Assembly: GCA_030610915.1 (NCBI GenBank)
Contig: JAUWQS010000008.1
Coordinates: 1 to 15,077, forward strand
DNA length: 15,077 nucleotides
From: Pseudomonadota bacterium
Lineage (GTDB): Bacteria > Desulfobacterota > Syntrophia > Syntrophales > JADFWA01
Direction of reading: 5' to 3'
Under the pieces are notes generated by a model. It was not told the DNA's origin, searched no databases, and saw only the letters and a list, made by a program, of their open reading frames with translations. Below, one piece after another: positions 1,019-13,453 of the stretch. A program made the position numbers and the translations under genes. How positions within the stretch are numbered: position 1 is the stretch's first letter; each line of letters opens with the position of its first letter.

Positions 1019-2008
1019 ATGAAAAGCGTTAATAAGCAAACCATGTTAAGGACTTTGGTCCTTCTGTCCATCATCGGCCTGGGGCTGGTTCTATTATCCT
1101 CCCAAACGGCTGAAGCAAAGCGAAAAATAGCCCCGGAAAAAATCAAGGTTATCATGGTTGGCGACCGGCTGGTAGATGTTGCCTTTAACCTGGGAGTTCT
1201 CCCCGAGGCCATGTCCGTGCGCTGCTCCATGTGGCCCATGTGCAAGGAACTCATAAATGCTTCCCAGATACTGGGTTGCCCAAAATGCATAGTCGACAGA
1301 ATACCGAACATCGTTCCCGACACGGCAAGGAAACGCGGTATCAAACGGATCATTATTGAAAAGCATCCCAATTTCTGTATTTACAGACCCAGGGTCAAGC
1401 CGGCCAATGTTGTCCCTTTGCTTGAAGGCAAGGGCTTGACCATCGAGTATGTAGATTTCTCCCGGGGCCTGGAGTCAGCCATACGACAGACAGCCAGGTT
1501 GCTTGGACGTCAGTCCGGGGCCGATGCTTTGATCAATCGCTACAACAAAGCTATGGCAAAGGCTAAAAATGCCCTGCCCGGAAAAAAGCTGGGGGAAAAG
1601 GTGGTCATTATCAATGGCACTTACCAGAGTGCGACGGGGAAAACGTTTCTAAGAATCGAGATGCCCGGGGGCTATTCCGATCGCTTCCTGCTCGATCCAC
1701 TCGGTTGTATGAATATAGGTGATGTTCTCAAATCTCCAAACAAAAAAGCGGATAAAGGCCACTTTTCAATTAGAAAGCTGGATGTCCTGGCAAAGGCCAA
1801 ACCTGATGTTATTGTTATGACAGGGAATGCCTTTGCAGTACAAAAGGCTCTTGCTGCAGCAGTAAAGAAATATCCGGCCATGGCCGATGTGCCGGCCATC
1901 AAGGACCTGGCAATCTATAGCCTGCCCTTTTATGGAGATTCGAGTGTGATTGAGTATCCGGCTATTTTACGGCAGTGGACCGACGCTATCTACAGAAAGA
2001 GAAATTAG
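1019..2008 (+). CDS. Periplasmic ABC-type substrate-binding protein (TroA/BtuF-like fold), Cys-rich; paralogue 1
   Basis: AAAAGGAGA lies 7-8 bases before the ATG. Residues 1-33 form a Sec signal peptide ending AEA. The mature part fits the two-lobed helical-backbone binding proteins (Peripl_BP_2 type). An early strand IKVIMVGDRLVDVAFNLG is followed by a long central helix around 150-190, and near the end comes VPAIKDLAIYSLPF, which matches the typical 'ValProAla(Val/Ile)Lys...ValTyr...LeuPro' ending of metal-chelate binding proteins. Distinctive Cys residues are C69, C75, C87 and C90 (GCPKC), C120, and one in a PLGCMNIGD block. The paralogue at 4814-5776 shares the RC...WPM, GCxxC, PGGYSD(R/K)FLL(D/E)PLGC and ADKG blocks. 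Substrate is unknown; a metal or metal chelate is an inference from TonB receptors alongside. No permease or ATPase gene is in the window. Confidence 0.8.
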   Translation: MKSVNKQTMLRTLVLLSIIGLGLVLLSSQTAEAKRKIAPEKIKVIMVGDRLVDVAFNLGVLPEAMSVRCSMWPMCKELINASQILGCPKCIVDRIPNIVPDTARKRGIKRIIIEKHPNFCIYRPRVKPANVVPLLEGKGLTIEYVDFSRGLESAIRQTARLLGRQSGADALINRYNKAMAKAKNALPGKKLGEKVVIINGTYQSATGKTFLRIEMPGGYSDRFLLDPLGCMNIGDVLKSPNKKADKGHFSIRKLDVLAKAKPDVIVMTGNAFAVQKALAAAVKKYPAMADVPAIKDLAIYSLPFYGDSSVIEYPAILRQWTDAIYRKRN

Positions 2009-2040
2009 GCAAACAGCTTTACTTTCAAGATACTCGAAGC

Positions 2041-2226
2041 AAGGGAGGTGATAAAATTATTGGTGCAGGGAAAGGCGGCTTTCATCCCGCAAGAAGCAAG
2101 ACCGCCTTTCCCCCGGGAAGCAGGCCTGGCTGAATTTATGGCCGGGCTGCCCCTTGGTTCTTTTTCTACCAGAGCTGAGGGTTACTGTCAATTGTCATGT
2201 AACTAAGAAGAGGAGGGAGAACTTAA
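2041..2226 (+). promoter_or_regulatory. Conserved leader, copy A, upstream of TonB receptor 1
   Basis: This 186-base leader is repeated almost base for base before TonB receptor 2 (6826-7013). From 5' to 3' it holds a near-perfect Shine-Dalgarno AGGTGAT block and then a long hairpin (GGGAAAGGCGG at about 2068-2078 pairing with CCGCCTTTCCC at about 2102-2112). A second hairpin follows (CCTGGC/GCCGGG around a UGAAUUUAUG loop, 2124-2146). A stretch of about 50 bases identical in both copies contains a dyad GTTAC-N3-CAATTG-N4-GTAAC at 2181-2203, and the true ribosome binding site GGAGGGAG comes last. The first block could translate a short leader peptide. I see no cobalamin-riboswitch core (no GCCACTG box). 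It could be a riboswitch-like RNA, an attenuator or an operator. Confidence 0.55.
2056..2133 (+). CDS. Possible 25-codon leader peptide (non-standard ATT start)
   Basis: A strong Shine-Dalgarno (GGGAGGTGAT) ends just before a frame reading IIGAGKGGFHPARSKTAFPP and stopping at TGA 2131-2133. There is no ATG, GTG or TTG in this frame at the right spacing; ATT at 2056 is the best placed start. The equivalent frame in the second leader (6842-6919) has the same length and stop. Of 12 base differences between the two, 8 fall at third codon positions, including Phe, Pro (twice), Gly, Ser and Ile synonymous changes. That pattern suggests translation, but the region also folds into a hairpin, so selection on RNA is an alternative. 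Confidence 0.3.
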   Translation: MIGAGKGGFHPARSKTAFPPGSRPG

Positions 2227-4257
2227 ATGAAACGGTTTAAATCGATGTTGAGCTTGTTTGCCTTAGTCTTTGTATGTGTCCCGTCGGCGCAGGCGCAAGA
2301 AGTGGTTGAACTGGAAAAGACAGTAGTTACCGCCACACGCACAGAGAAAGCGGTAAAGGATGCGCCGGCCAGCGTTACCATAATAACAAGAGAAGAGATT
2401 GAGGCCACCTCTGCCCGCTATGTAGACGATCTGCTCAGAGATATTGTGGGAGTCGATGTGAAACGGCCTCGCGGCATATCCAGCTCATGCACGCACATCC
2501 GCATGAGGGGCTTTTCCCATCCCCGTGGAACCCTGATATTAAGGGATGGAATGCCCATAAACCGGATCGCCTGCGGCGGCGGAAAGCATAACGAAATTCC
2601 GGTGGAGCTTATCGAGAGGATAGAGGTGGTGAGAGGCATTAACGCATCTCTTTACGGCACAAGCGCAATGGGCGGGGTAATCAATATCATTACCAGGAAA
2701 CCGGAAAAGGAGCTGAAAGGCACGGTAGAGGGTTCCTATGGGACATTCGATACCTGGAATAGCGGCGTAACCCTGAGCGGCACGGCAAAAGAGAAATTTG
2801 GATATCAGCTTTACTATAATCATCTGGAGACTGACGGCTATAATCCATGGTCGGATTCCTTTATTGCCACAAAACAGCCCTGGGTCCAGAAGAAGTTCAG
2901 ACAGGCTATCGTGGATCAGGACAGAGAGGCGGACAACATCTTTGCCAGGTTGACCTATGAAATCGATCCATCCTCCACCCTTGCCTTTGCGTATTCCTGC
3001 TGGGATGACGAAATCGGAAATGGACGAAAATACAATTATAATGAGTTTGAAAGAAACAGGTCAAGCCTAACCTATGAAAAGAAGGGCAAATTAAATATCT
3101 CTGCCAATCTTTATTACTTAGATGAAGACTTTGAATTTACCTATGACCGAAAGCCAAACAAAAAGATAATGAAGGCATTTGATACCATTGAGATGATAAG
3201 CAAGATCCCCATCGAAGATTTTGGAGGGATGGTCAGCGTCAGCATGCCGATAAAAAAGAGACATCTGTTGACCTTCGGGACGGATCAGCGGCTTGGTGAT
3301 TTAGAAAACAGATGTGACTGGGTGACATCAAACCGCAAAACCAGAACTGAAGGGAAGCAATATCGGGGAGCTTTCTTTGCTCAGGATGAAATAGATGCCG
3401 GAAGACTCCTTGCCACACTAAACGCGAGGATAGACTGGTACAAGACATACGATGGCTCATTTTACGATTCCACGGGTAAAAGTGAAAAGTATTCCGATGA
3501 ATCGGGCGAGGAGTTCAATCCAAAACTGGGTCTGGTCTATCATCTGACCGATTCGACTACCCTGCGTGGTTCTGTGGGCAGGGCATCCAATGTTCCCTAT
3601 TTATATTCTCTGTATGGCACATGGGAGTGTCCGCCGGGGAAATTTAATGAAGGAAACCCTGATCTGGACCTTGAATACACTATTGGTTATGAGGCAGGAA
3701 TAGAGCAGCGTTTCGGAGATCGAGTGATGTTAAGGATGACCGGATTTTACAATGATATAAATGACTGGATGGCAAGGATTTACAATAAGACACAAAAAGG
3801 GGTTAAGTATTATAAATGGCAAAACATAGATGAGGTGGAGACCAGCGGCATAGAATTAGAGGCGGAATATATGCCTTTCACCTCCCTCAGACTCTATGCC
3901 AATTATGGCTATCTCCATACTGAAATAAAAAAGTACAAAGACGGACCACAATTGGAGGGGAACAGGCTTGTTGACCAGCCTCGCCACCGCTTCAATTCCG
4001 GTTTTACATATACCAATCCCGATCTGTTCACCATCGACTTAAGACAGCGTTATGTTGGCCATCGTTATGATGATATGGAAAGCGCCCAGAAACTCGACGA
4101 TTATGTAACTTTCGATGTCAAGATTTCCAGAGATATCACTAAATTTATAGAGGCATCCTTAGAGGTCGAAGATATCTTCAACAAGACCTGGCAGGAATCA
4201 TATCAGTGGGAGACGCCCGGACGGATGATCTTCGGCAGGGTAAAGATAATGTTTTGA
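2227..4257 (+). CDS. TonB-dependent outer-membrane receptor 1 (BtuB/CirA-like)
   Basis: A ribosome binding site GAGGGAG lies 8 bases before ATG 2227. Residues 1-23 are a signal peptide cut after AQA. The mature N-terminus carries a TonB-box-like VVELEKTVVTATRT, then the plug domain (about 43-155: VTIITREEIE, VERIEVVRG-type block, YGTSAMGGVINIITRKP), then a 22-strand-type beta barrel to residue 676, ending in Phe (KIMF) as expected for outer-membrane assembly. Length is normal for the family. The plug has unusual Cys residues (SSSCTHIRMRG and NRIACGGGKHNE) absent from receptor 2. Its role is uptake of a bound substrate into the periplasm, energised by TonB-ExbBD. It follows binding protein 1, and its stop was originally 11 bases from the NikL-like gene. 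Confidence 0.9.
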   Translation: MKRFKSMLSLFALVFVCVPSAQAQEVVELEKTVVTATRTEKAVKDAPASVTIITREEIEATSARYVDDLLRDIVGVDVKRPRGISSSCTHIRMRGFSHPRGTLILRDGMPINRIACGGGKHNEIPVELIERIEVVRGINASLYGTSAMGGVINIITRKPEKELKGTVEGSYGTFDTWNSGVTLSGTAKEKFGYQLYYNHLETDGYNPWSDSFIATKQPWVQKKFRQAIVDQDREADNIFARLTYEIDPSSTLAFAYSCWDDEIGNGRKYNYNEFERNRSSLTYEKKGKLNISANLYYLDEDFEFTYDRKPNKKIMKAFDTIEMISKIPIEDFGGMVSVSMPIKKRHLLTFGTDQRLGDLENRCDWVTSNRKTRTEGKQYRGAFFAQDEIDAGRLLATLNARIDWYKTYDGSFYDSTGKSEKYSDESGEEFNPKLGLVYHLTDSTTLRGSVGRASNVPYLYSLYGTWECPPGKFNEGNPDLDLEYTIGYEAGIEQRFGDRVMLRMTGFYNDINDWMARIYNKTQKGVKYYKWQNIDEVETSGIELEAEYMPFTSLRLYANYGYLHTEIKKYKDGPQLEGNRLVDQPRHRFNSGFTYTNPDLFTIDLRQRYVGHRYDDMESAQKLDDYVTFDVKISRDITKFIEASLEVEDIFNKTWQESYQWETPGRMIFGRVKIMF

Positions 4258-4359
4258 GGTATCAGCTCAATAAATCAGGGTAGGGGAGGTTTTAACCTCC
4301 CGATGCGGGCGACTACGAGTCACCCCTGCCCGAACTTATTGGGCTATTACGTTTTGAGG
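4251..4359. mobile_element. 91-bp palindromic MITE-like element, copy 1, with 9-bp target duplication
   Basis: The element occupies 4260-4350 and is flanked by GTTTTGAGG at 4251-4259 and 4351-4359. The second copy (6713-6803) is the same length and about 95% identical but has different flanking repeats (GTCTAATCG). Different flanks around an identical core are the mark of transposition with 9-bp duplication. The ends are imperfect inverted repeats (AGCTCAATAA at 4264 against TTATTGGGCT at 4336), followed inwards by GGGTAGGGG pairing with CCCCTGCCC and by a perfect GGGAGGTT/AACCTCCC hairpin. No coding capacity. The left flank contains the stop codon of TonB receptor 1, and the right flank supplies the ribosome binding site of the next gene. 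Removing the element leaves just 11 bases between the two genes. Confidence 0.8.
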
Positions 4360-4368
4360 AGGTTTTTG

Positions 4369-4680
4369 ATGATGCAGCGTTTAGTTTATCTAACTGTCTT
4401 GCTGTCCATGGTCCTCTTTGCTTCCAGTGTGTTAGCCCATACCCTGGTGGTTTTTGCTGACGACAACGAGGATGGCACGGTGACCATCGAAGCTGTTTAC
4501 AGCACCCAGGAGATACCTGTTTTCGCCGAGGTGCGGCTTGAGGATACTGAAGGAAATATCCTCTGGAAGGGAAGAATCGACGAGGATGGTCTTTGTACAT
4601 TTAAGAAACCGGAGATTCTCTACACGATCATTGTGAATGCAGGGCCGGGGCATAGGGCCGAGGTGAATGGGCCTCGATAG
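4369..4680 (+). CDS. Small secreted NikL/DUF4198-like protein with N-terminal His in the mature form
   Basis: GAGGAGG at 4355-4361 lies 7 bases before ATG 4369 (a second ATG follows directly at 4372). Upstream codons in this frame belong to the inserted 91-bp element and are not part of the gene. Residues 1-23 are a signal peptide ending SVLA, giving a mature protein that begins His-Thr-Leu. The remaining 80 residues form a small beta-rich domain (AEVRLEDTEGNILWKGRIDEDG), the pattern of NikL and DUF4198-type periplasmic proteins that accompany Ni/Co transporters. A free N-terminal His is a common metal ligand in such proteins. It sits between a TonB receptor and a binding protein. The family call is by resemblance; metal binding is inferred. 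Confidence 0.6.
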   Translation: MMQRLVYLTVLLSMVLFASSVLAHTLVVFADDNEDGTVTIEAVYSTQEIPVFAEVRLEDTEGNILWKGRIDEDGLCTFKKPEILYTIIVNAGPGHRAEVNGPR

Positions 4681-4685
4681 ATAGA

Positions 4686-4790
4686 ATGAACATCGAACAT
4701 CGAACGTCCAACATCGAATGCTGAATGGGAATTGAGAAGCGGAGCGACATCATTATTCGACGTTCGATGTTCAATGTTGGACGTTCATCT
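4686..4790. repeat. Palindromic intergenic repeat built of GAACATC units
   Basis: The left arm runs ATGAACATCGAACATCGAAC and continues with GTCCAACATCGAATG. The right arm, ATTCGACGTTCGATGTTC followed by AATGTTGGACGTTCAT, is its approximate reverse complement. The arms therefore fold into a long imperfect hairpin around a short purine-rich centre (about 4725-4745). Each arm is itself made of 7-9-base GAACATC/GAACGTC units. This is a dispersed intergenic repeat type, inserted between the NikL-like gene and binding protein 2. No coding potential seen. Confidence 0.7.
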
Positions 4791-4813
4791 TTTAAAAAAG
4801 GAGAAAAAGTATC

Positions 4814-5776
4814 ATGAATACCGTAAGAAAAAAGTTTTGTTTACAGCTTTTGGCATGCATTGTGGCTGCTTTAGTTTCAATCCCATTTTTTGGCGCCCCG
4901 CCGGCAGCCGGAACGGAACTTGGGCTCAACCCCGGCTGCGATACTGTTAATGCCATATTTATATCGGACAGGATTACAGATGTTGCCTATCGCCTGGGAG
5001 CTGTGCCGGTTGCCTACTGTGCGCGCTGCTGCTGGCCCATGACCCAAAAAGAGCTTTCCACTGTGATTAGACTGGGATGTTACAGATGCGCAACCATTGA
5101 TTCAGTAATCGAGACAGCAGATAAGCACAAAGTCGGTCTAATCCTGATCGAGGATGGGTTTGTCTCTATCCATAAAGACTGGAACTGGAAGGACAAATAT
5201 CTGAGGCATCTAAAGAAGCGAGGGTACAATGTACATGTAATATCATTTTCAAAAGGGGCGCCCCAGGCTATTCTTGAAATCGGAAAGCTGCTTCACAGAG
5301 AGGAAAAGGCCGGCAGGCTTGCCGCAAAGTATATCAGGAAACACAAGCAAACCACGAAGGCAATTTCCGCCTCCAGGGCAAACAAAAAGATTCTGATACT
5401 ACAGGGACTGGGCAGGCGCGGTGTCAGGGTAGAGGCGCCGGGAGGCTATTCGGACAAATTTCTGCTCGAGCCGCTGGGGTGTGTAAATGTGGGAGATTTG
5501 GCCAGAGATCAGGATACGAAAGCAGATAAAGGGTATTTCCTGCTCGAGGACTGGCAGGCTGTTTCAAATGCAAATCCCGATATCATTGTAAAATATGGAA
5601 ACCCCTGTGCCGTGGAAAAGAGCCTTGCCCGGGCATTAAAGAAGTATCCTGAACTGGCAAAGGTCCCGGCTATAAGAGACCATGCAATCTATACCCTTCC
5701 ATTTTATATGGATTCTTCGGTGACTCAGTATCCAAAGATTTTGAAGGCATGGTTTGATGCTGTTTACAAAAAATGA
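4814..5776 (+). CDS. Periplasmic ABC-type substrate-binding protein, Cys-rich; paralogue 2
   Basis: AAGGAGA lies about 10 bases before ATG 4814. Residues 1-33 form a signal peptide (hydrophobic 9-28, PPAAG). The mature protein is collinear with the one at 1019-2008: SDRITDVAYRLGAVP, then C69, C72 and C73 followed by WPM, GCYRC (C89, C92), PGGYSDKFLLEPLGC, ADKGYF, and a near-identical ending (VPAIRDHAIYTLPF, then SSVTQYP and an Ala-Val-Tyr end). The RC-WPM, GCxxC and PLGC blocks are therefore the conserved core, while C120 of paralogue 1 is missing and a CC pair is added here. Binding of a soft or borderline metal, or of a thiol-ligated chelate, is possible. The gene presumably once followed the NikL-like gene directly. 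Confidence 0.8.
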   Translation: MNTVRKKFCLQLLACIVAALVSIPFFGAPPAAGTELGLNPGCDTVNAIFISDRITDVAYRLGAVPVAYCARCCWPMTQKELSTVIRLGCYRCATIDSVIETADKHKVGLILIEDGFVSIHKDWNWKDKYLRHLKKRGYNVHVISFSKGAPQAILEIGKLLHREEKAGRLAAKYIRKHKQTTKAISASRANKKILILQGLGRRGVRVEAPGGYSDKFLLEPLGCVNVGDLARDQDTKADKGYFLLEDWQAVSNANPDIIVKYGNPCAVEKSLARALKKYPELAKVPAIRDHAIYTLPFYMDSSVTQYPKILKAWFDAVYKK

Positions 5777-5778
5777 AA

Positions 5779-5955
5779 GTAACTTACTCAGGTGGATAGA
5801 CTGAAGGCTGAAGACTGTTAGTAAAAGCGGGAATACGGCACACTTTGAAGCCATGTTTGATGCAAAATCTGCTGTTTCTCTGCCAAAGTGCGGCAATCGT
5901 ATTTTTCTGGTACCTTCAGCCTAAATAGCTTCAGCCTGACTACGTGAGTAGTTAC
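5779..5955. repeat. Intergenic inverted-repeat element, nested
   Basis: GTAACTTACTCA at 5779-5790 is the reverse complement, with one extra base, of TGAGTAGTTAC at 5945-5955. Inside lie GACTGAAGGCTGAAG (about 5799-5813) opposite CTTCAGCCT copies near 5916-5937. Further in, GGAATACGGCACACTTTG (about 5829-5846) stands against CAAAGTGCGGCAATCGTATT (5884-5903). The nested arms make a long imperfect stem typical of non-autonomous palindromic elements. The only minus-strand frame across it overlaps the end of binding protein 2 and lacks coding features. Confidence 0.65.
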
Positions 5956-6010
5956 AAATGAAAAAGGAAAGCATGGTGAAACCGGATAGAATCATGGGAA
6001 AAGGGATGAA

Positions 6011-6607
6011 TCAAAGTAATTTTATCAGCGCAACAATAAAGGCTGCCTGAGCAATAAGCATACCGGCTACCCACTTGATAACACCAACCTTTGATTCTGC
6101 AATCTCTGTTCTAAGCTCAGCGCGGAGCAACTCAATATCCTTTTTGAGTTCAGCCCTGACTGACTCAATATATTTCGTAAGATTGCTTTCGGTAGTTTTG
6201 AGATCACTTCTAATTACCTCAATATCCTTTTTGAGTTCAGCCCTGACTGACTCAATATATTTCGTAAGATTGCTTTCGGTTGTTTTGAGGTCTTTCGTGA
6301 GATTGCTTTCTGTAGTTTTCAGGTCGTTCGTAAGATTGCTTTCAGTTGTTTTGAGATCACTTCTAACTATCTCAATATCTTTTTTGAGCTCAGCACGGGC
6401 AAATTCAATATCCTTTTTAAGATCAGCCCTGACTGACTCAATATATTTTGTGAGGTTGCTTTCGGTTGTTTTCAGATCGTTCTTGCTGGCAAGATTTTCT
6501 TCTATCATTTCCTGGAAGACCTCGGCAATCTCTTTGGCGGAGTCTTCACTCAGGCCAGTGGCTTTAAGGCGGCTGTAAATGTTCAGGGTGTCGATAGCAA
6601 GAGGCAT
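6011..6607 (-). CDS. DUF1640/CCDC90-like coiled-coil protein with C-terminal membrane anchor
   Basis: It reads opposite to its neighbours, with ATG at 6607-6605 preceded on the minus strand by AGGAAAA. The N-terminal 40 residues (MPLAIDTLNIYSRLKATGLSEDSAKEIAEVF) match the start of bacterial DUF1640-type proteins. The middle (about 42-165) is a long heptad-like coiled coil made of 29-residue units, DLKTTESNLTKYIESVRAEL plus KKDIE and a short variable link, with an 11-residue DLKTTESNLTN/K subunit repeated three times in the centre. The C-terminus (VGVIKWVAGMLIAQAAFIVALIKLL) is one membrane helix. Such proteins often sit beside mobile DNA and have no settled function. It splits the two halves of the transport gene set and is probably a later arrival. 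Confidence 0.7.
   Translation of the reverse strand: MPLAIDTLNIYSRLKATGLSEDSAKEIAEVFQEMIEENLASKNDLKTTESNLTKYIESVRADLKKDIEFARAELKKDIEIVRSDLKTTESNLTNDLKTTESNLTKDLKTTESNLTKYIESVRAELKKDIEVIRSDLKTTESNLTKYIESVRAELKKDIELLRAELRTEIAESKVGVIKWVAGMLIAQAAFIVALIKLL
6108..6480. repeat. Tandem 87-bp repeats inside the coiled-coil gene
   Basis: CTCAATATCC begins at 6131 and again at 6218, with near-identical sequence between, giving an 87-base period (29 codons). A third, more diverged unit covers about 6372-6470. Between about 6270 and 6350 a 33-base subunit (11 codons, DLKTTESNLTK) is repeated three times. The units remain in frame, so copy number can change without breaking the protein. Confidence 0.8.
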
Positions 6608-6703
6608 TTTACTGTTTTCCTATGAAAACCGGCAGACTGTAGTTTGGCATAAACTAACACATTGGCATTCCTTATGTCAATTTTTTAGGTAGATTAATTT
6701 AAC

Positions 6704-6812
6704 GTCTAATCGTGTCAGCTCAATAAATCAGGGTGGGGGAGGTTTTAACCTCCCGATGCGGGCGACTACGAGTCACCCCTACCCGAACTTATTGAGCTAT
6801 TACGTCTAATCG
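6704..6812. mobile_element. 91-bp palindromic MITE-like element, copy 2, with 9-bp target duplication
   Basis: The element lies at 6713-6803 between direct repeats GTCTAATCG at 6704-6712 and 6804-6812. It is the same length as copy 1 (4260-4350). In the stem next to the ends, copy 1 has GGGTAGGGG with CCCCTGCCC, while copy 2 has GGGTGGGGG with CCCCTACCC. Both changes keep pairing (U-G to U-A, A-U to G-U). The outer arms AGCTCAATAA and TTATTGAGCT pair perfectly here. It lies just upstream of the second copy of the receptor leader. Confidence 0.8.
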
Positions 6813-6825
6813 ATATTCTGTCGTT

Positions 6826-7013
6826 GAAAGGAGGTGATAAAATTATAAGCGCAGGAAAAGGCGGCTTCCATCCGGCAAAGAGTGAGACCGCCTTTCCCCC
6901 AGGAAGCAGGCCTGACTGAATTTATGGCCGGGCCACCCCTTAGTTCTTTTTCTACCAGAGCTGAGGGTTACTGTCAATTGTCATGTAACTAAGAATGAGG
7001 AAGGAGAACTAAG
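6826..7013 (+). promoter_or_regulatory. Conserved leader, copy B, upstream of TonB receptor 2
   Basis: It has the same order of parts as copy A: Shine-Dalgarno AAAGGAGGTGAT, hairpin GGAAAAGGCGG/CCGCCTTTCC, second weaker hairpin around UGAAUUUAUG, then the identical block of about 50 bases ending in the dyad GTTAC-N3-CAATTG-N4-GTAAC (6967-6989), and the ribosome binding site GAGGAAGGAG before ATG 7014. Differences from copy A concentrate in the first half. Presence before both receptors and no other gene here suggests shared control of receptor expression by one signal, perhaps the transported substrate. A recent duplication of leader plus signal peptide is the alternative. Confidence 0.55.
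6842..6919 (+). CDS. Possible 25-codon leader peptide, copy B
   Basis: This is the counterpart of 2056-2133, with the same length and TGA stop (6917-6919), reading ISAGKGGFHPAKSETAFPP after the first Ile. The Shine-Dalgarno is perfect (AGGAGGTGAT), but the start would be ATT or ATA; a TTG at 6824 in the same frame lies upstream of the Shine-Dalgarno and is not conserved in copy A. Synonymous third-base differences dominate. It is weak evidence on its own and should be judged together with copy A. Confidence 0.3.
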   Translation: MISAGKGGFHPAKSETAFPPGSRPD

Positions 7014-8996
7014 ATGAAACAGTTTAAATCGATGTTGGGCTTCTTAGCTCTGGGTATGGTCTTTGCCTCTCCGGCGTGGGCGCAGGAGGTGATGGAACTC
7101 GAGAAAACGGTTGTTACGGCCACAAGAACGCCTGAAGTTCTGAGAAATGTTTCATCCTCTGTATCTATTATAACCAGAGATGAGATTGAGAACTCTACTG
7201 CCCGTACAGTGGATGATCTGTTGAGTACAAAGGCAGGCATAAATGTAAGAAAGGCAGGCGTGAGTCACACAGATAATAAAATTACACTGAGGGGTCTTGG
7301 AAAAGTCTTGATTCTTATAGATGGTCTACAAGCAAATGATGCCATAGGTGGACAACAATTAGATAATCTACCATTGGAATCAGTAGAAAGAATAGAGATA
7401 GTAAGGGGGGCTGCCTCTGCGGTATATGGCTCCGAGGCCATGGGAGGTGTGGTAAATATAATCACAAAAAAACCAGAGAAGAAACTGCAAGGCTATATAG
7501 ATGGCGGTGGAGGCAACCTGGATACCTATCGAGCCGGAGGACAACTGAGTGGTTCTTACAAAGATTTAGGCTTTCTTTTTACCACCAAAAGAGAGGAGAC
7601 AGGTGGTTATATACCTACTCGTCACGAGTATCGAAAACCTGAAGTAAGCTATAAAGATCAGGATGTGCGTACCTTGGAGCAATTTGGTAAATTGAATTAC
7701 GAAATAACGGCTGACTCAGATCTTAATCTACAGTTCTTACGAACTTATAATCATGTTGACAATAGTGCTGGTGCGAAAAATCAGATGAGTGACAGAGATC
7801 GGGACAGGGTTCAAGGCAGTTATAATCTCAGGATATGTGAGATAGATTCTTCTGTAAACTTTTTTTATCAGAAGGATAATTTCACTTACAACTCACTTAA
7901 ATATAAGACCAATATACCGCAATACAAAATGGATTCTGATAGGGATCTATGGGGTATTAGCCTTCAGACCTCCCGTGATATTACAGATTTCTGGAAGTTG
8001 ACTGCCGGTGTTGATTACAAAAACGCAGAGCTTGATACTGGTTATGATTACTATTTTGAGGCGAGAGATAAACTTTGTGAAGGAAAACAGGATTACTGGG
8101 GACCTTTTTTACAGAACAGATTTTCTTTTCTGGATAAGAAGTTAATTTTGCATCTGGGTCTCAGATACGATACCTGGCGCTCACATGACGCGAAAAACTT
8201 TGACTCAAAGTATCAAACAGACCCCACAGACTATGGGAGTAATACCGATGGAGCAGTCAATCCTAAGTTTGGTTTTACTTATGATCTGCCTTGGGATTCG
8301 ACCCTCAGGGCCTCTGTCGGGAGGGCATTTCGCGCACCTACTATCATGGAACTCTATTACACCTGGTATTATGGCACTACAACCTATGCCGGCAATTCCG
8401 ATCTTGATCCGGAGGATATGCGCTCTTATGACATAGGATTGGAAAAGAGGTTTGGTTCGAAAGGGAAAATATCTATTACCTATTATTATAACAAAATAGA
8501 GGATCAAATAACATCAATAGTAACTCAGGAATCCCCTCAGAAGATAAAACAGAAGCAAAACGTGGGAGAAGCAGAATCCCAGGGGGTAGAATTAGCCGCC
8601 AATTACGATATCTGCACATGGTTATCCCTCTTTGCTAACTATACCTATAATCACTCAAAAATAAAAGAGTTTTCTGACGATCCCAGCTTGGAGGGCAACC
8701 GCTTAGCTTGGTCTCCATACAATAAGGCAAGCTATGGTTTAACATACAAAGGGCCTTATTCCATCACGGCAACCCTGACTGGAAACTATAAAGGAAATTG
8801 CTGGCATGAAAATAAAAACACCAAGCGCATGGAAGCATATACTATATTAGACTTGGCGCTCAGGTGGAAGCCCTCTAAACATATCGAGTTATGGTCTGAT
8901 ATACATAATTTGAATGATAAAAAATATAGCGGAATGACCGATACATGCAGGATGCCTGGCCTGAGGTGGCTGGCCGGCGCGAAATTCAACTTTTAA
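7014..8996 (+). CDS. TonB-dependent outer-membrane receptor 2 (BtuB/CirA-like)
   Basis: GAAGGAG stands 6-7 bases before ATG 7014. The signal peptide is cut after AWA at residue 23, with the first 40 residues nearly the same as receptor 1, including the TonB-box-like ELEKTVVTATRT. The plug reads VSIITRDEIE, ITLRGLGKVLILIDG, VERIEIVRGAASAVYGSEAMGGVVNIITKKP. The barrel runs from about residue 160 to 660 and ends in Phe (AGAKFNF). The barrel sequence differs widely from receptor 1 and the plug lacks its two Cys blocks, so the two may take different forms of one substrate. It is followed closely by the TPR gene. It shares the duplicated leader with receptor 1. Confidence 0.9.
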   Translation: MKQFKSMLGFLALGMVFASPAWAQEVMELEKTVVTATRTPEVLRNVSSSVSIITRDEIENSTARTVDDLLSTKAGINVRKAGVSHTDNKITLRGLGKVLILIDGLQANDAIGGQQLDNLPLESVERIEIVRGAASAVYGSEAMGGVVNIITKKPEKKLQGYIDGGGGNLDTYRAGGQLSGSYKDLGFLFTTKREETGGYIPTRHEYRKPEVSYKDQDVRTLEQFGKLNYEITADSDLNLQFLRTYNHVDNSAGAKNQMSDRDRDRVQGSYNLRICEIDSSVNFFYQKDNFTYNSLKYKTNIPQYKMDSDRDLWGISLQTSRDITDFWKLTAGVDYKNAELDTGYDYYFEARDKLCEGKQDYWGPFLQNRFSFLDKKLILHLGLRYDTWRSHDAKNFDSKYQTDPTDYGSNTDGAVNPKFGFTYDLPWDSTLRASVGRAFRAPTIMELYYTWYYGTTTYAGNSDLDPEDMRSYDIGLEKRFGSKGKISITYYYNKIEDQITSIVTQESPQKIKQKQNVGEAESQGVELAANYDICTWLSLFANYTYNHSKIKEFSDDPSLEGNRLAWSPYNKASYGLTYKGPYSITATLTGNYKGNCWHENKNTKRMEAYTILDLALRWKPSKHIELWSDIHNLNDKKYSGMTDTCRMPGLRWLAGAKFNF

Positions 8997-9011
8997 ATGA
9001 TTGACAAACTT

Positions 9012-9042
9012 ATGCCTGCAGTTTCCAATTTGCTACAGGCAT
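9012..9042. repeat. Hairpin between receptor 2 and TPR gene
   Basis: ATGCCTG at 9012-9018 pairs with CAGGCAT at 9036-9042 around a 17-base loop, and outer TTGACA/TGACAA bases are partly matched. There is no U-run after it, so it is a weak candidate for a terminator and could instead be an mRNA-stability or translational control hairpin before the TPR gene. Confidence 0.35.
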
Positions 9043-9065
9043 GACAATCAGAAAGGAGAAAATTG

Positions 9066-10556
9066 ATGGACAAGGCAGAAAATAAAAAAAGGAATATCAC
9101 AGGGATAATATTAGCGGTTCTTATAGTTCTGGTAATCATCTCTATGGTCTATACGCAGCAAAAGGCAGGGTATGAAAAATCGGGCGTTGTCGAGTTTAAC
9201 AACGGAAATTACAGGAAAGCGATAGAGAATTATACAAGGGGATTAGAATCCGACCAGGACAATGCCTCCCTGTACAATAACCGGGGACTAGCCTACTGCG
9301 GGCTGGAGAAGTACGCTAAGGCCGTCGCCGATTACGACAAGGCCATAGAAATTAAGCCTGATTTTGCAGATGCCTATTATAACAGGGGTTTGGCCTATTT
9401 CAAAAAGGGTTCTTCCTATAATCTTGAACCGCGAAAAAAGGCGATCAAAGATTTCACCATGGCCATTGAATTGCAGCCCGATTTTGCTGATGCTTATTAT
9501 AATCGGGCCGTTGCCTATACCGAGCAGATCCATTATCACCATAAATATTCAACAATCCCTCCCAAGTTTCCTTCCGAAGACATGGATAATTATAACAAAG
9601 CGCTAACTGATTATACCAGGGCGCTCGACTTAGATCCCTCCTATGTCCTGGCCTATCAGGGAAGGGGAAATCTCTTTTACAGACATGGAGACTGGGACCT
9701 GGCAAACAAAGAGTATGATAAGGCCCTCGATCGTCAAAAGGAAATATTGATGAAGGTGGGAGATGTCGGTCTGGCCGGAGTATTAAACAGCAGAGGAAGA
9801 AACAACCTGGCCTGGGGAAAACTGGATGAGGCGATCTCCGATTTCACAACAGCGATTGAGCATTACAGAAAGGGCGTGGTCAACAAAGAGGTGGGGCTTA
9901 GCAAAAGCGTCACCAATGCCCTCGCCCACAGGACAGTTGCTGCATGGGAATTAGGAAGATGGGAAGATACAATCAGGTTTGCAGATGAGACAATTGAAGT
10001 AAAGGAGGCCAACCCTAGAAAATATGGGACGGCTGCCTTTTATTACTTCACCAAGGGGAGGTGTTATTACAAACTTGGCAGATATGATGAGGCAGTCTCC
10101 AATCTTGAAAAGGTGCTGGCCGAATCAAAGTATGGCATGGGCGCCAAGGCGAGGTTGTGGCTGGGCAGGGTATATAAGGCGAAAGGTGATAATGAAAAGG
10201 CGGAGAACCTGATAAGAGAGGCTCTCAGATTATGCATTAAAGACGTTGAGAAAGGAAACGAACTTAAGCTTTATAAGGCACATCTTCAAAGAGGATTATG
10301 TTACCTGGAACTTGATGAGCACAAAAGGGCAATCTCCGACTTTAAAGAGACGATAAAGTGGCGGGTCTTTGCAGATAAGCCGGCCAACCACACAAATTAC
10401 TGGTTAGATGCCCACAAATATACCGGCATTGCCTATATGAAGGCGGGAGATAAGAGCAATGCCCGTGAATATCTGCAAAAAACAATAGAGCTGGCAAAGG
10501 AGCGGGGATTTAACGAAGTGGTGGAAGAAGCGAAAGAGCTGTTAGCCGAACTGTAA
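9066..10556 (+). CDS. Membrane-anchored tetratricopeptide-repeat protein
   Basis: AAAGGAG precedes ATG 9066; a TTG three bases earlier is in frame but less likely. Residues about 11-30 (ITGIILAVLIVLVIISMVYT) form one N-terminal membrane anchor with the rest probably periplasmic. About ten TPR units follow: the clearest are 36-69, 70-103 (YNNRGLAYCGLEKYAKAVADY), 107-143, a unit after a short insert rich in His/Tyr/Pro (IHYHHKYSTIPPKFP), then units near 230, 265, 300, 340, 380, 415 and 455. TPR arrays scaffold protein complexes; the partner here is unknown. Its place between receptor 2 and the radical SAM genes suggests a role in assembling or tethering the system. Confidence 0.85.
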   Translation: MDKAENKKRNITGIILAVLIVLVIISMVYTQQKAGYEKSGVVEFNNGNYRKAIENYTRGLESDQDNASLYNNRGLAYCGLEKYAKAVADYDKAIEIKPDFADAYYNRGLAYFKKGSSYNLEPRKKAIKDFTMAIELQPDFADAYYNRAVAYTEQIHYHHKYSTIPPKFPSEDMDNYNKALTDYTRALDLDPSYVLAYQGRGNLFYRHGDWDLANKEYDKALDRQKEILMKVGDVGLAGVLNSRGRNNLAWGKLDEAISDFTTAIEHYRKGVVNKEVGLSKSVTNALAHRTVAAWELGRWEDTIRFADETIEVKEANPRKYGTAAFYYFTKGRCYYKLGRYDEAVSNLEKVLAESKYGMGAKARLWLGRVYKAKGDNEKAENLIREALRLCIKDVEKGNELKLYKAHLQRGLCYLELDEHKRAISDFKETIKWRVFADKPANHTNYWLDAHKYTGIAYMKAGDKSNAREYLQKTIELAKERGFNEVVEEAKELLAEL

Positions 10557-10562
10557 TTTTCA

Positions 10563-10683
10563 ATCCACAGATTTCGCAGATTACACAGATTACTCTAATT
10601 ACTGGAAGGGCGATGCGAAATTTGATACTCCCGCAGCTTGCAGCGAGTAGTTCGTTAAGGTTCTCCCCTTTTTTAAAGGGGAG
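10563..10683. repeat. Intergenic palindromic repeats, including a 9-bp-stem hairpin
   Basis: 10563-10595 has the CACAGATTTCGCAGATTACA type sequence common as a dispersed intergenic repeat. At 10663-10683 CTCCCCTTT/AAAGGGGAG makes a 9-bp stem with a three-base loop. It is followed by GGGGATTTTTAT, so transcription termination or attenuation before the 54-aa peptide gene is possible, but the form also matches a common dispersed palindrome. Confidence 0.5.
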
Positions 10684-10720
10684 TCAGAGGGGATTTTTAT
10701 ATAAAAGGAGGTAGAGAATT

Positions 10721-10885
10721 ATGTGTGTTCCGATAAGTGTTTTAACAAAAGGAAAAATCAGTGGTTGCACAGGAGTGTGCGGGCTGTGGCCTCACATCAG
10801 CGCCCTGGTGGTCCTTTGCGCCGGTCTGGTCTGGAACTTTGTCCGTGGAGGATTTTCCAGGAAAAAGCATGCGGAGGTTAATTGA
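10721..10885 (+). CDS. 54-aa Cys-containing single-span membrane peptide
   Basis: A strong ribosome binding site AAAGGAGG (10703-10710) stands before ATG 10721, and the frame ends at TGA 10883-10885. The peptide has a Cys at position 2, a GCTGVCG block (C16, C20), then one membrane helix (about 25-41, with C33) and a basic tail (FSRKKHAEVN). It lies upstream of a radical SAM gene, from which it is now separated by an inserted palindrome. It could be a small subunit of the membrane complex or a substrate of the radical SAM enzyme. I do not recognise a family. The ribosome binding site and composition support a real gene. Confidence 0.6.
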   Translation: MCVPISVLTKGKISGCTGVCGLWPHISALVVLCAGLVWNFVRGGFSRKKHAEVN

Positions 10886-10897
10886 ATAGTATTTCTA

Positions 10898-10970
10898 TTT
10901 TTTGACAGGATCAACAGGATAATCAGGATAAATAAAAAATCAGGTAAATCCTGTTCATCCTGTCGAAAAA
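10898..10970. repeat. 73-bp inverted repeat of the GACAGGAT type
   Basis: The left arm 10898-10920 (TTTTTTGACAGGATCAACAG plus GAT) and the right arm 10948-10970 (reverse complement) match at 21 of 23 positions around a 27-base AT-rich loop. It lies between the peptide gene and the radical SAM gene and may have displaced the original spacing, since the radical SAM start has no good ribosome binding site. Termination in either direction is possible because of the T-run and A-run at the ends. Confidence 0.7.
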
Positions 10971-10999
10971 CATTCCGCCGCAGGCGGCTAATTCAATAA

Positions 11000-11914
11000 A
11001 TGAATTTTTCATATCCACATTCTACCTTACAGATCGAACCTACCCGCAGATGCAACCTGAACTGTGAGATATGTATGCGCCAATACCTGGATGAAACTTC
11101 TGCTTTGCTTTCTCTTGAAGGATTTAAAAAGGTGTTGAACTCATGGAATTTTCGGCATGTGGCGCTTCATGGGTGGGGTGAGCCGCTGCTTAATCCTCAA
11201 CTGTTTGAGATGGTGAAATATGCTGAATCCAAAGGGGTTTCAACGGAACTGACCACCAATGCGACATTGCTTCGGACAAAGATGGAAGAAATCTTTGCAA
11301 GTGGCCTCGACAGTATCGTATTCGGGATACACAGGAGTGAAAGTCTGCCGGTTGTTCTGTCTCAGATCAAAGAGTTGATAACTCAAAGAGACGTAAAGAA
11401 ACTGAGATGTCCCAGGACTTACATCGATATTGTTATATATAGAGGAAATTGCCATGAAATTGTGCAGCTTATCGAAGCCACCGCCGGATTAAATATAGAT
11501 GGAGTAGTTATGCACAGAATTTTTAAGCCTGAATTCTGCGCAGGGATCCGGCAGGTAAATCCCGCCACGGAATATATCTCTATTCAAGAGGAAATGACAT
11601 TGTTCAGGGAAGTAAAAAAAGCAGCAAGAAGGCTGAAGATAAAACTCTGCTTGCCTCCGAAGCCATCCATACCCTGCAGGGCGGTAAAGTATAGTCTTTT
11701 CGTTACCTCTAAGGGCAAAATCTCACCCTGTCCCTTTTTGTCGGAGTTTTATATGGGAGACGCACTTAATGGAGACCTGCGGGAGGCTATAATCTCGCAA
11801 AGGTATAAACAATTTGTAAAAGATATGAAAGGGCATCCTGTCTGTAGCAGATGCCCCTTAGGTTCCGCAAATGGAAGCTTTTATGAAGGCATGGCGTTAT
11901 GCCCCATCATGTGA
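11000..11914 (+). CDS. Radical SAM protein with SPASM/twitch-like C-terminal Cys cluster
   Basis: Residues 18-25 hold the radical SAM CxxxCxxC motif (CNLNCEIC), preceded by the usual LQIEPTRR, with GWGEP at 58-62 (the SAM-binding 'GGEP' loop) and TTNATLL near 85. The C-terminal part carries C226, C244, C282-xx-C285 and C301 around FVTSKGKISPCPFLSEFYMGD, the layout of a shortened SPASM/twitch domain holding at least one extra Fe-S cluster. Such enzymes make radical modifications on peptides or small molecules. There is no clear Shine-Dalgarno before ATG 11000; an inverted repeat ends 29 bases upstream. The membrane protein at 11930 follows after 15 bases, so these two are co-transcribed. Substrate is unknown. 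Confidence 0.85.
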   Translation: MNFSYPHSTLQIEPTRRCNLNCEICMRQYLDETSALLSLEGFKKVLNSWNFRHVALHGWGEPLLNPQLFEMVKYAESKGVSTELTTNATLLRTKMEEIFASGLDSIVFGIHRSESLPVVLSQIKELITQRDVKKLRCPRTYIDIVIYRGNCHEIVQLIEATAGLNIDGVVMHRIFKPEFCAGIRQVNPATEYISIQEEMTLFREVKKAARRLKIKLCLPPKPSIPCRAVKYSLFVTSKGKISPCPFLSEFYMGDALNGDLREAIISQRYKQFVKDMKGHPVCSRCPLGSANGSFYEGMALCPIM

Positions 11915-11929
11915 GCGAAAGGAGGATAA

Positions 11930-12649
11930 ATGATAACCTATTTCTGGGCGGCAGGCATTGCCTTTACTGTTTTTATCTTTGCAGGCAAGGCCGGGCTGGT
12001 GGCAGGCACGACAGGTATTAAGGCATTGAAAATATGGGGTTTAGCCTTGATTTATGGGGCGCTCGCTTTTCTTATGGGCGTTATCTTAAAGGTTTTCAAT
12101 CCACTTAATTATTTCGAGTTTTTTCAAAAATTCATGTCATATGGTGTAATACTCCATTTTTTTCTATCAATCGGCCTGCTGGCCTGGGGAGTCTATACCA
12201 TAAAGTCGTATCTCAACCGGAAATTAGGACGCATGTCGAAGGCAGGATATCTTCTAATGCTCCCCTGTCCTGTTTGTCTGTCGGCCATGCTTCTTTCTTG
12301 CTCCATATTTGTCGCCATAACCGGCATCGATCCATTGAAAGCAGGGGGATTGATGGCAGGCCTTTTCATGGTTGTGATCGCAGGAGTCGCTCTGCTGACA
12401 AGGCGGGTGATGAGGGCAGACAAGGAGGGAGTGCCAGGGCCTGTGCTGCTTGGGTTTGTAATGATGCTGGTGGGGCTCTATTTTGCTGTCTCGGTCATAG
12501 TTGTGCCAGTATATTCCCAATCTAAGGTCTTTTTTTCTACTGCGAACAATATAGTACCGCCAAGCCTATCTCTTAAAGAGGCAGTAGTGATCCTCGCAGT
12601 GTCTGCTCCGTTTTTCGGTCTTGGCTTTTTCAAAAATCGAAAGGAATAG
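11930..12649 (+). CDS. Multi-span membrane protein, probable DUF2162-type transporter
   Basis: AAAGGAGG lies 5 bases before ATG 11930. The 239 residues form about seven membrane helices (about 3-20, 35-53, 70-90, 105-130, 138-156, 172-194, 217-234). A CPVC motif (C113, C116) with C124 sits inside or at the edge of the fourth helix, and a LysE/cadmium-transporter-like [13 protein letters not shown] comes early. Length and motif fit the 'predicted transporter' family DUF2162 as I remember it, which is recorded near ExbB-like genes; that association is from memory. It is translationally close to the radical SAM gene. Moving a metal ion through the CPxC helix is an inference. Confidence 0.6.
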
Positions 12650-12715
12650 AACAATGAACAATTAACAGTTTGAAGTGAGGAATTGGAAAATCGAACATGT
12701 GAGGGAAGAATATCG

Positions 12716-13262
12716 ATGAAAAATAAGAAAGAGGATTTCGGTGATGAGCTGGCAGAACGTTTTTTACACTTTGCGATCGGGATAATCAAACTCACCGGAG
12801 CGCTTCCTAAAACGCCGGCAGGTAAGTACATAGCCGATCAATTGCTGCGGTGTGGAACCTCGTCCGGTGCAAACTATGAAGAAGCAAAAGGAGCTGAGTC
12901 TCGCAAAGATTTTGTTCACAAATTAGGTGTAGTGTTGAAGGAAACAAAAGAAAGCCGTTATTGGTTGAAATTGATGTTAGTTAGCAAAATGTTAGCTCAT
13001 AACAAGGTAGGTTCTCTGCTAAGTCACCGCAAATAAATAAGCTTTACACTATATCAACCCTAATTCGATAAGTAGTAGGGGGGCAGATGCCCTCATCAGC
13101 AGATATTCGAGCCTATTCGAGGAACAGGCCCTACATTTAACAGCTTGCCCGAAGGGCACTCTGCGGTGAACAGTTAAGGTTATTTATTTTCGATTCCTAA
13201 ATGAAGCTGAAGAGCTTATCGCAATTGCAGGAAAAAGCATCATGACAGCAAGAAACAAGTAA
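12716..13262 (+). pseudogene. Four-helix-bundle (S23-type) protein gene, split by a 174-bp insertion
   Basis: GAGGGAAG precedes ATG 12716. The first 102 codons read as an S23/four-helix-bundle protein (FLHFAIGIIKLTGALPKTPA, then QLLRCGTSSGANYEEAKGAES, KLGVVLKETKESRYWLKL). The frame then runs into foreign sequence and stops at 13036 after SHRK. The missing C-terminus (LNEAEELIAIAGKSIMTARN) is intact at 13197-13262. Joining 12716-13022 to 13201-13262 gives an uninterrupted 122-codon frame, the usual family length of about 120. The family is found in 23S rRNA intervening sequences and as stand-alone genes. As it stands the product would lack its last helix and is probably not functional. Confidence 0.85.
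13019..13200. mobile_element. 174-bp MITE-like insertion with CTAA target duplication
   Basis: The insert 13023-13196 lies between CTAA at 13019-13022 and CTAA at 13197-13200. Its ends contain AAATAAATAA (13031-13040) and TTATTTATTT (13180-13189) as inverted repeats. Inside, GCAGATGCCCT (13083-13093) pairs with AGGGCACTCTGC (13153-13164). It has no coding capacity. Its borders are fixed independently by the continuity of the host gene on both sides. Confidence 0.8.
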
Positions 13263-13315
13263 ACAATTGACAATTGATCACTGTTAATTGACCATTGAGA
13301 AGGAGGTCCACCAGA

Positions 13316-13453
13316 ATGAATATTTTAGGTTACATGCAGTCTATCTTTTATCTAATGATGAATGCCATGCTCTATCCGGTCATGGGGCTGCTTATTTTTT
13401 TGTTTATCTACATGCTTTACTCAACTTTCGCACCTGCACCTAACTGCTGGTAA
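13316..13453 (+). pseudogene. N-terminal fragment of a probable TolQ/ExbB-like membrane protein, cut by the IS4 element
   Basis: A strong ribosome binding site AAGGAGG (13300-13306) precedes ATG 13316. Residues 1-33 (MNILGYMQSIFYLMMNAMLY then PVMGLLIFLFIYM) belong to the host. The IS begins at 13417, and the last 12 codons to TAA 13451 are read from the IS end. The host part looks like the opening of MotA/TolQ/ExbB-family proteins, in which a short N-terminal segment with 'Leu-Tyr-Pro-Val' leads into the first membrane helix. The rest of the gene is not seen after the IS. The family call rests on 33 residues and on the operon context (TonB receptors, DUF2162-like protein). Confidence 0.45.

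Follow-up and report, generated by a model that had tools for sequence, protein, structure and literature searches.

A structured leader RNA and a microprotein gene at a putative metal-uptake locus of a Syntrophales bacterium

We analyzed a stretch of 15,077 nucleotides (nt), hereafter the window, which comprises positions 1 to 15,077 of contig JAUWQS010000008.1 in assembly GCA_030610915.1, assigned by its GTDB lineage to the order Syntrophales of the phylum Desulfobacterota. Its plus strand encodes two paralogous Cys-rich binding proteins (BP1 and BP2), two TonB-dependent receptors (TBDR1 and TBDR2), a small secreted protein resembling NikL, a TPR protein, a radical S-adenosylmethionine (SAM) protein with a SPASM domain, a DUF2162 membrane protein and a TolQ/ExbB-like fragment (Table 1). 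This gene list had been drawn up in an earlier reading of the same DNA (the original prediction), and family searches confirmed it. Two elements were absent from that list and are the main subject here: a duplicated leader RNA before the receptors, and a 54-codon gene (10721–10885) for a microprotein beside the radical SAM gene. Our literature searches yielded no description that we recognized as that of the leader or the microprotein, and it is in this sense that we call them undescribed. Loci, genomes and database proteins used for comparison carry L, G and P numbers, alignments carry A numbers, and the two leader models are R1 and R2.

A structured leader RNA before TonB receptors

Both receptor genes of the window are preceded by a 158-nt structured RNA, and the duplicated leader DNA spans 169 nt at 91% identity. 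DNA similarity placed the leader, whole or partial, before receptors in six other loci. An alignment of nine copies (A7, from which the L041a row of A6, a match of only 41 nt, was dropped) gave a consensus of three hairpins, in which 11 of the 33 base pairs showed two-sided changes. A search of 44 sources with model R1 added three copies (L087, L114 and, in part, L115). Within the order, R1 had matches in 6 of the 242 genomes, two of the positions being new; with fourteen copies (A8), two-sided changes were seen in 23 of the 33 pairs. Across the phylum, model R2 had matches in 15 of 375 genomes and contributed 12 new copies, each followed by a receptor frame. Overall, all 26 copies collected precede a TonB-receptor gene, including the 12 found by the second model only. 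In the model-fitted alignment of these 26 copies (A9), of which several new ones (L131, L132, L133, L135 and L136) look like close relatives, 88.9% of cells are paired and two-sided changes affect 28 of the 33 pairs. Its covariation of 0.392 compares with 0.075–0.148 when the pairing partners were slid, and none of 500 shuffles scored as high. Two weak matches at receptor frames, at position 450 of L147 (26.8 bits) and in L155 (18.1 bits), were left uncounted.

The leader is a conserved, covarying structure found in the 5′ leaders of a single gene class, which is the mark of a cis-regulatory RNA, and its structure is well supported. We regard it as a candidate new class of such RNAs, one that probably controls this locus. 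Searches against Rfam 15 gave no family match for 23 of the 26 copies (L115, L128 and L129 lay outside the search), with the second window copy compared at the gathering threshold only; a leader search extended to E 10 returned two matches, both on the other strand and judged to be chance. Cobalamin-type riboswitches also lie upstream of TonB receptor genes, and the leader resembles them as a structured RNA close to a receptor start codon, but it differs from them in its three separate hairpins as well as in the Rfam result. The short distance from the end of the RNA to the start codon, 21 nt for one copy and 22 nt for the other, would favor control of translation.

The genes that follow the leader and its receptor elsewhere include several with a metal or tetrapyrrole theme. 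CobN-like genes follow in L126, L142 and L149 (25–28% identity by BLAST), and FecCD-type permeases in L143 and L149. The L151 operon includes a nickel Opp2B permease (NF045470, 426 bits against a cut-off of 350), the L150 operon a relative of tetrapyrrole methylases that scores under the cut-offs, and in L152 DUF4198 and NikL proteins are encoded downstream.

TBDR1 is 85% identical to its counterpart in L041, 83% in L026 and 75% in L088; it is the most conserved shared gene in L041 and comes second, after the microprotein, in L088. Two Cys motifs in its plug, SSSCTHIR and ACGGGK, are kept in four of four sequences. For both receptors the nearest sequence in the PDB is the colicin I receptor, with BtuB, heme and siderophore receptors ranking behind, and such a mixture of nearest relatives does not fix the ligand.

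A Cys-motif microprotein beside a radical SAM gene

The microprotein carries the motif MCxP[IV]SVxTxG..GCxG[ILV]C, one hydrophobic segment and a basic tail. In an alignment of ten copies (A4), M1, C2, P4, S6, V7, T9, G11, G15, C16, G18, C20, P24 and I26 are invariant, and hydrophobicity peaks at residues 19–37. A good ribosome-binding site lies upstream of every listed copy, that of the window included. Comparing eight copies pairwise over 40 codons, we counted 245, 158 and 514 differences at codon positions 1, 2 and 3, respectively; this excess at the third position (514 of 917) is as expected of a protein under selection. That the gene is real is well supported. A protein database search brought up 144 relatives, and those named among the 120 listed are called 'hypothetical' or 'uncharacterized', bar one automatic label (P0292); one relative, P0291, belongs by its database name to Desulfosarcina ovata.

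The microprotein gene keeps close company with the radical SAM gene. Eleven radical SAM loci were found by the radical SAM protein alone, two of which (L046 and L047) had supplied query peptides; among the other nine, the microprotein adjoins the radical SAM gene in seven. The remaining two are L049, whose radical SAM protein is distant, and L055, which reaches a contig end and in whose genome another contig opens with a microprotein copy. In L087 the microprotein ATG lies 5 nt after the stop of the TPR gene, and its own stop overlaps the radical SAM start by 4 nt. Within a sample of 395 genomes, 7 contained the radical SAM protein (E <= 1e-50) and 8 the microprotein (E below 1e-20), and all 7 radical SAM genomes had both; this count is not independent, since 6 of the 7 had supplied rows of the microprotein model. 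Seven genomes with microprotein matches at E 0.0017 to 0.0086 were not counted, and absences are not firm because at most 6 radical SAM and 16 microprotein candidates were scored per genome. In the eighth microprotein genome (G187) the copy stands at a contig end. Among 30 genomes from the family to which G024 belongs, one carried a further copy together with its radical SAM gene.

Two main contexts recur. In the first (type A: L041, L005/L095, L087, L088 and L089), receptors, a TPR protein, the microprotein and the radical SAM protein occur together, with varying members and order; L115 belongs to this type without the radical SAM gene, at a contig end. TPR proteins are encoded near the microprotein in all of these loci as well as in L114 and L155. 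ExbB, ExbD and TonB genes lie upstream in L041 and L087, and downstream in L087 follow FeoA, FeoB, NikL and DUF4198. Downstream in L041/L161 and L095 are a pair of extracytoplasmic function sigma factors and a protein weakly like DUF4198 (under cut-off), and further on a NapH-like Fe-S membrane protein, HGD-D, a BadF-type ATPase and a CcdA-like membrane protein, names that rest partly on similarity to the tested proteins of L155/L156; CcdA-like, NapH-like (for which Pfam gives Fer4 domains only) and flavodoxin were named by eye. The microprotein islands of L114 and L155/L156 likewise include HGD-D with the BadF-type ATPase, the Fe-S membrane protein and the CcdA-like protein. The second context (type B: L090–L094) comprises a secreted FmdE-domain protein, the microprotein, the radical SAM protein and a membrane protein of about 193 residues, which had no Pfam match in the two members tested. 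A receptor comes next in L091 and L093, and the L093 contig ends at the radical SAM gene.

A larger island was read in the genome of L155/L156 (7.6 Mb, single contig), which is probably a Desulfosarcina, as its microprotein equals P0291. Here a CobN-like gene, an ATP-binding cassette (ABC) ATPase and CbiQ precede the island, whose order is receptor, microprotein, radical SAM, TPR, NapH-like, HGD-D and BadF, joined by a nitrogenase-like set; the NifH-like member of the nitrogenase-like trio scores best with CfbC of F430 synthesis, under the cut-off. Such reductive modules suggest that metal may be released by reduction.

We propose that the microprotein, small as it is, resides in the membrane and that its conserved N-terminal half, with its Cys and Thr residues, is probably a substrate or partner of the radical SAM protein. 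The arrangement is reminiscent of radical SAM/SPASM–peptide pairs of ribosomally synthesized and post-translationally modified peptides, in that a short gene for a conserved Cys peptide adjoins a radical SAM/SPASM gene and TonB receptors, although this peptide has a hydrophobic segment and lacks a visible leader or protease site. Methanobactin-type peptide metallophores likewise have a TonB receptor of their own. It is also conceivable, if doubtful in our judgment, that the radical SAM protein matures a metalloenzyme or the imported compound, with the microprotein serving as a structural subunit and not as its substrate. Indeed, the nearest named radical SAM models are metalloenzyme maturases (TIGR04317, 111 bits, under its cut-off of 380; TIGR04311, 72 bits, far under its cut-off), and the larger islands add HGD-D, BadF-type ATPase, NapH-like and nitrogenase-like proteins. 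Yet no target metalloenzyme is constant over the loci read, and the steadiest partner is the microprotein itself. Four radical SAM matches had been flagged for selenocysteine on account of an in-frame TGA; this proved to be the normal stop, which the match overruns.

Binding proteins, a truncated DUF2162 module and insertions

The original prediction had joined the listed genes into one candidate undescribed uptake system. This was not borne out: as judged from gene neighborhoods, the locus is not a single new operon but is put together from three modules that recur elsewhere, namely the binding proteins, DUF2162 with TolQ, and the receptor–TPR–radical SAM set with its microprotein.

BP1 and BP2 are 38% identical, and BP2 is 68% identical to a protein of L041. 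The Cys motifs noticed in the pair are real: Cys87 of BP1 is conserved in 163 of 163 sequences (164 family members were aligned, of which 163 have a residue at the site), and further Cys residues occur at position 120 in 151 of the 163, 230 in 149, 90 in 134, 69 in 117 and 75 in 109. The AlphaFold2 model of BP1 (predicted local distance difference test score, pLDDT, 92) has a class III binding fold. Its TM-scores against PDB structures are moderate (about 0.41–0.58 by query length among the 50 matches listed), with the heme-binding BhuT as the top match and HutB, RhuT and several siderophore binders among the 50; with heme and siderophore binders both present, the fold leaves the ligand undecided. 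A sequence search of BP1 against the PDB gave a chance match only (E 0.6). Relatives of BP1 come mainly from metagenomes and metagenome-assembled genomes labeled Desulfobacteraceae, for example Eth-SRB1 and Eth-SRB2, in line with a sulfate reducer as the probable source of the window.

We fetched 45 genome loci of this family and, from 30 of them, reached 28 genomes with 34 family matches, two of which are halves of probably one gene split across G012 contigs. Neighbor counts are lower bounds, as many contigs are short. A FecCD permease lay within 10 kb of none of the 34 matches and within 12 kb of one, in agreement with the prediction of binding proteins that have no ABC permease alongside. 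FeoB was encoded within 10 kb of 8 matches, compared with an expectation of about 0.4 (58 FeoB genes in 101 Mb), and CobN within 10 kb of one. Among the 45 loci, NikL relatives (E below 1e-10) occur in 11, a DUF4198 cluster in 12 and receptors in 18. These three families thus recur near the binding proteins. Among the loci read, DUF2162 stands beside the radical SAM gene in the window only. The energy-coupling factor (ECF) transporter component CbiQ adjoins the binding-protein gene in L032 and L045, an ABC-2 type transporter lies near it in L018, and an ABC ATPase in L028. A 1160-residue frame of L003, taken at one point for CobN, turned out to be a helicase-like ATPase, and its genome (G005) gave no CobN match.

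The window resembles class III ABC import of the FecB/BtuF/BhuT type in combining the PF01497 binding fold with TonB receptors, and differs from it in the conserved Cys set, in having no FecCD permease or ATPase in the window, and in the absence of FecCD within 10 kb of any of the 34 matches. The small secreted protein is similar to NikL of nickel/cobalt ECF systems (NF058648) over 89 residues; unlike those systems, the window has no ECF core, and the protein falls under the curated cut-off.

Several side observations concern the binding proteins. A small membrane protein gene lies directly upstream of the binding-protein gene in 7 of the 45 loci (L001, L005, L017, L022, L037, L039 and L045); the one member tested matched COX1, under cut-off. 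P0103 unites PF01497 and PF00115 in one protein. In L012 and L013, genes for an ABC ATPase and for a protein with DUF4857 lie near that of the binding protein.

We found DUF2162 in 38 genomes of the order out of 291, with 36 of them over the cut-off. In the 30 loci fetched, TolQ adjoins it in all 30 and DUF2149 in 29, the exception being cut by a contig end; within about 1.5 kb, CobN was found in 11, a receptor in 14, and either one in 23. L022 has the order receptor–DUF2162–TolQ–DUF2149–CobN, and its full TolQ belongs to PF01618. All 30 relatives read carry the PCPxC motif, which does not vary across the 28 rows of A10. A structural model of DUF2162 (pLDDT 81) had no PDB match at E <= 0.001, and a literature search on DUF2162 and DUF2149 found no description of DUF2162. 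Because DUF2162 and TolQ belong to a known module, they are not substitutes for an ABC permease, as had been proposed, but the start of a DUF2162–TolQ–DUF2149 trio. This trio matches the hmuTUV gene order of Bacteroidota given in PMC10434189.

In PMC12583661, HmuS is described as removing iron from heme and HmuT as being of unclear function, and FeoB is the proposed Fe2+ carrier in that paper and in PMC6460266. The window shares a TonB receptor with this system (hmuYRSTUV), which also has a TolQ/ExbB-like protein, DUF2149 and a CobN-like de-chelatase; by gene order alone, DUF2162 would occupy the HmuT position. HmuY was not among the families matched in general scans of the window, and no search aimed at HmuY was made. 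In contrast to Hmu, the trio of the window is incomplete, with TolQ a fragment and DUF2149 missing, the window has no CobN, and it adds the binding proteins, the microprotein, the radical SAM protein and the leader RNA. One could read the whole as an Hmu-type locus for heme (or a corrinoid) that insertions have damaged, with CobN and DUF2149 lost or lying beyond the window and the radical SAM protein and microprotein as bystanders. The constancy of TolQ and DUF2149 beside DUF2162, the CobN and receptor neighbors, the complete L022 arrangement, and the leader before receptor–CobN pairs in L126 and L142 all fit such a reading. We nevertheless consider it unlikely, as the microprotein–radical SAM pair repeatedly accompanies receptors or TPR proteins where DUF2162 is lacking, and 29 DUF2162 loci yielded no leader, a weak negative given flanks of only about 1.5 kb.

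Insertions have indeed left their mark on the window. An insertion sequence (IS) with inverted ends of 18 nt (13417–13434 and 14923–14940) cut TolQ, so the DUF2162 module is probably not working here; the right flank of the element had no TolQ match among the compared loci, and a continuing TolQ was not found. The four-helix-bundle gene between DUF2162 and TolQ is probably also an insertion, since the two closely adjoin in other loci, and the 94-nt repeat (4259–4352 and 6712–6805) is probably a small inserted, mobile or REP-like (repetitive extragenic palindromic) element. This repeat bears on the tight spacing claimed originally: the 15 nt between the radical SAM and DUF2162 genes were measured as such, but the interval from receptor 1 to the NikL-like gene is 111 nt to 4369 (or 45 nt if an ATG further upstream, at 4303, is taken as the start), and the stated 11 would require that about 100 nt of repeat be taken out. 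Two further observations concern the remaining sequence. A repeat-rich CCDC90-like coiled-coil gene lies on the minus strand (6011–6607), a relative of which precedes a leader–receptor pair in L005/L095, and positions 1–258 at the left edge resemble, by eye, the C-terminal part of a transposase.

Table 1. Genes, RNA copies and inserted elements of the window
Feature	Position	Strand	Basis
BP1, from a Cys-rich family with a class III periplasmic binding fold	1019–2008	+	PF01497, 46.9 bits (gathering score 27.5)
Leader RNA copy 1	2048–2205	+	21 nt upstream of TBDR1; models R1/R2
TBDR1, TonB-dependent receptor	2227–4257	+	PF07715 and PF00593
94-nt repeat copy 1	4259–4352	+	96% identity to 6712–6805
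NikL-like secreted protein	4369–4680	+	NF058648, 54.5 bits, under cut-off 100
BP2, paralogue of BP1	4814–5776	+	PF01497, 38.8 bits (cut-off 27.5)
Leader RNA copy 2	6834–6991	+	22 nt upstream of TBDR2; 91% DNA identity to copy 1
TBDR2, TonB-dependent receptor	7014–8996	+	PF07715 and PF00593
TPR protein, N-terminal hydrophobic segment (by eye)	9063–10556	+	TPR families
54-residue microprotein gene	10721–10885	+	Cys motif, one hydrophobic segment, basic tail, ribosome-binding site
Radical SAM/SPASM protein	11000–11914	+	PF04055 and PF13186
DUF2162 membrane protein, PCPxC motif	11930–12649	+	PF09930, 140 bits (cut-off 34.4)
Four-helix-bundle protein between DUF2162 and TolQ	12713–13036	+	TIGR02436, 68 bits (cut-off 24)
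TolQ/ExbB-like N-terminal fragment, cut by the IS	13316–13416	+	62% over 34 residues to L022 TolQ
Insertion sequence, 1,524 bp	13417–14940	-	DDE_5 transposase at 13421–14494, PF13546

Probable TonB-dependent uptake of a metal complex

Taken together, we think it fairly probable that the locus is part of an island of an anaerobic bacterium for the TonB-dependent acquisition of a metal complex, be it an iron, nickel or cobalt chelate or possibly a metallo-tetrapyrrole. Uptake of a metal or metal chelate through TonB, as originally predicted, is supported by the protein families and their neighbors, from which we infer the role. The leader RNA would sense the status of the metal or chelate and control translation, the receptors would carry the complex into the periplasm, and the Cys-rich binding proteins would hold it there. 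Reduction or a chelatase of the CobN type may then release the metal in the periplasm, from where it would enter the cell through FeoB, an ECF transporter or another carrier encoded elsewhere. A comparable route is reported for Bacteroides fragilis in PMC6460266, with heme iron released in the periplasm and FeoAB in addition.

Several points weigh against this interpretation. Regarding the leader, alignments A8 and A9 were fitted to its model, folding of each window copy by itself showed no significant advantage over shuffles (z -1.73 and -1.72), and two weak matches, both uncounted, lie away from receptors: one by R1 in L037 (E 0.07) and a partial one at position 5065 of L145 (16.9 bits, E 0.38). 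L114 has the microprotein and TPR genes with no adjacent radical SAM gene, which is on another contig of that genome. The radical SAM, NikL-like and CfbC-like assignments all fall under curated cut-offs. No DUF2149 was seen among the open reading frames of the window, none of its unassigned frames has the size of CobN, and the adjacency of the radical SAM and DUF2162 genes is peculiar to the window, no other radical SAM or microprotein locus read having DUF2162 alongside. One binding-protein match lies 10 to 12 kb from FecCD, and FecCD is encoded somewhere in all 28 genomes searched, so that an ABC importer acting in trans is possible. Regular pairing of the binding proteins with an ordinary ABC permease is not seen locally, but these distant FecCD genes and the ECF genes beside the binding protein in L032 and L045 count on the other side. 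Finally, signs of iron, nickel and cobalt coexist and conflict.

A narrower proposal, which we put forward tentatively, is that the cargo is nickel or cobalt (or a cobamide) rather than iron and that the leader senses nickel, cobalt or a corrinoid. The NikL and DUF4198 neighbors agree with it, as do CbiQ beside the binding protein and before the microprotein locus of L155, the nickel Opp2B permease of L151 and the CobN neighbors; moreover, cobalamin synthesis is lacking in some sulfate reducers of seeps, according to PMC10553843. On the other hand, the proximity of FeoB and the heme-binder fold in first rank point to iron, and NikL and DUF4198 share loci with FeoB too (L003, L087 and L152).

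The uptake island may also have a more specific form, which we offer as speculation. It would then be an undescribed system of anaerobes, with the leader as a new riboswitch class for a metal or metallo-tetrapyrrole that controls the receptors. The membrane microprotein of about 55 residues would be chemically modified in its MCxPxSVxTxG..GCxGxC half by the radical SAM protein to give a metal-binding site or a peptide metallophore, and in larger islands (L155/L156) CobN, ECF, HGD-D/BadF and nitrogenase-like reductants would be coupled to it and strip the metal from its carrier.

The candidacy of the leader as a new riboswitch class can be tested directly, and identifying a ligand would reveal the cargo of the receptors. 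The microprotein–radical SAM pair represents a new target for peptide-modification chemistry, and the relative in Desulfosarcina ovata means that the microprotein may be testable in culture. Both elements bear on the supply of trace metals or tetrapyrroles to anaerobic sulfate reducers, including methane-seep lineages.

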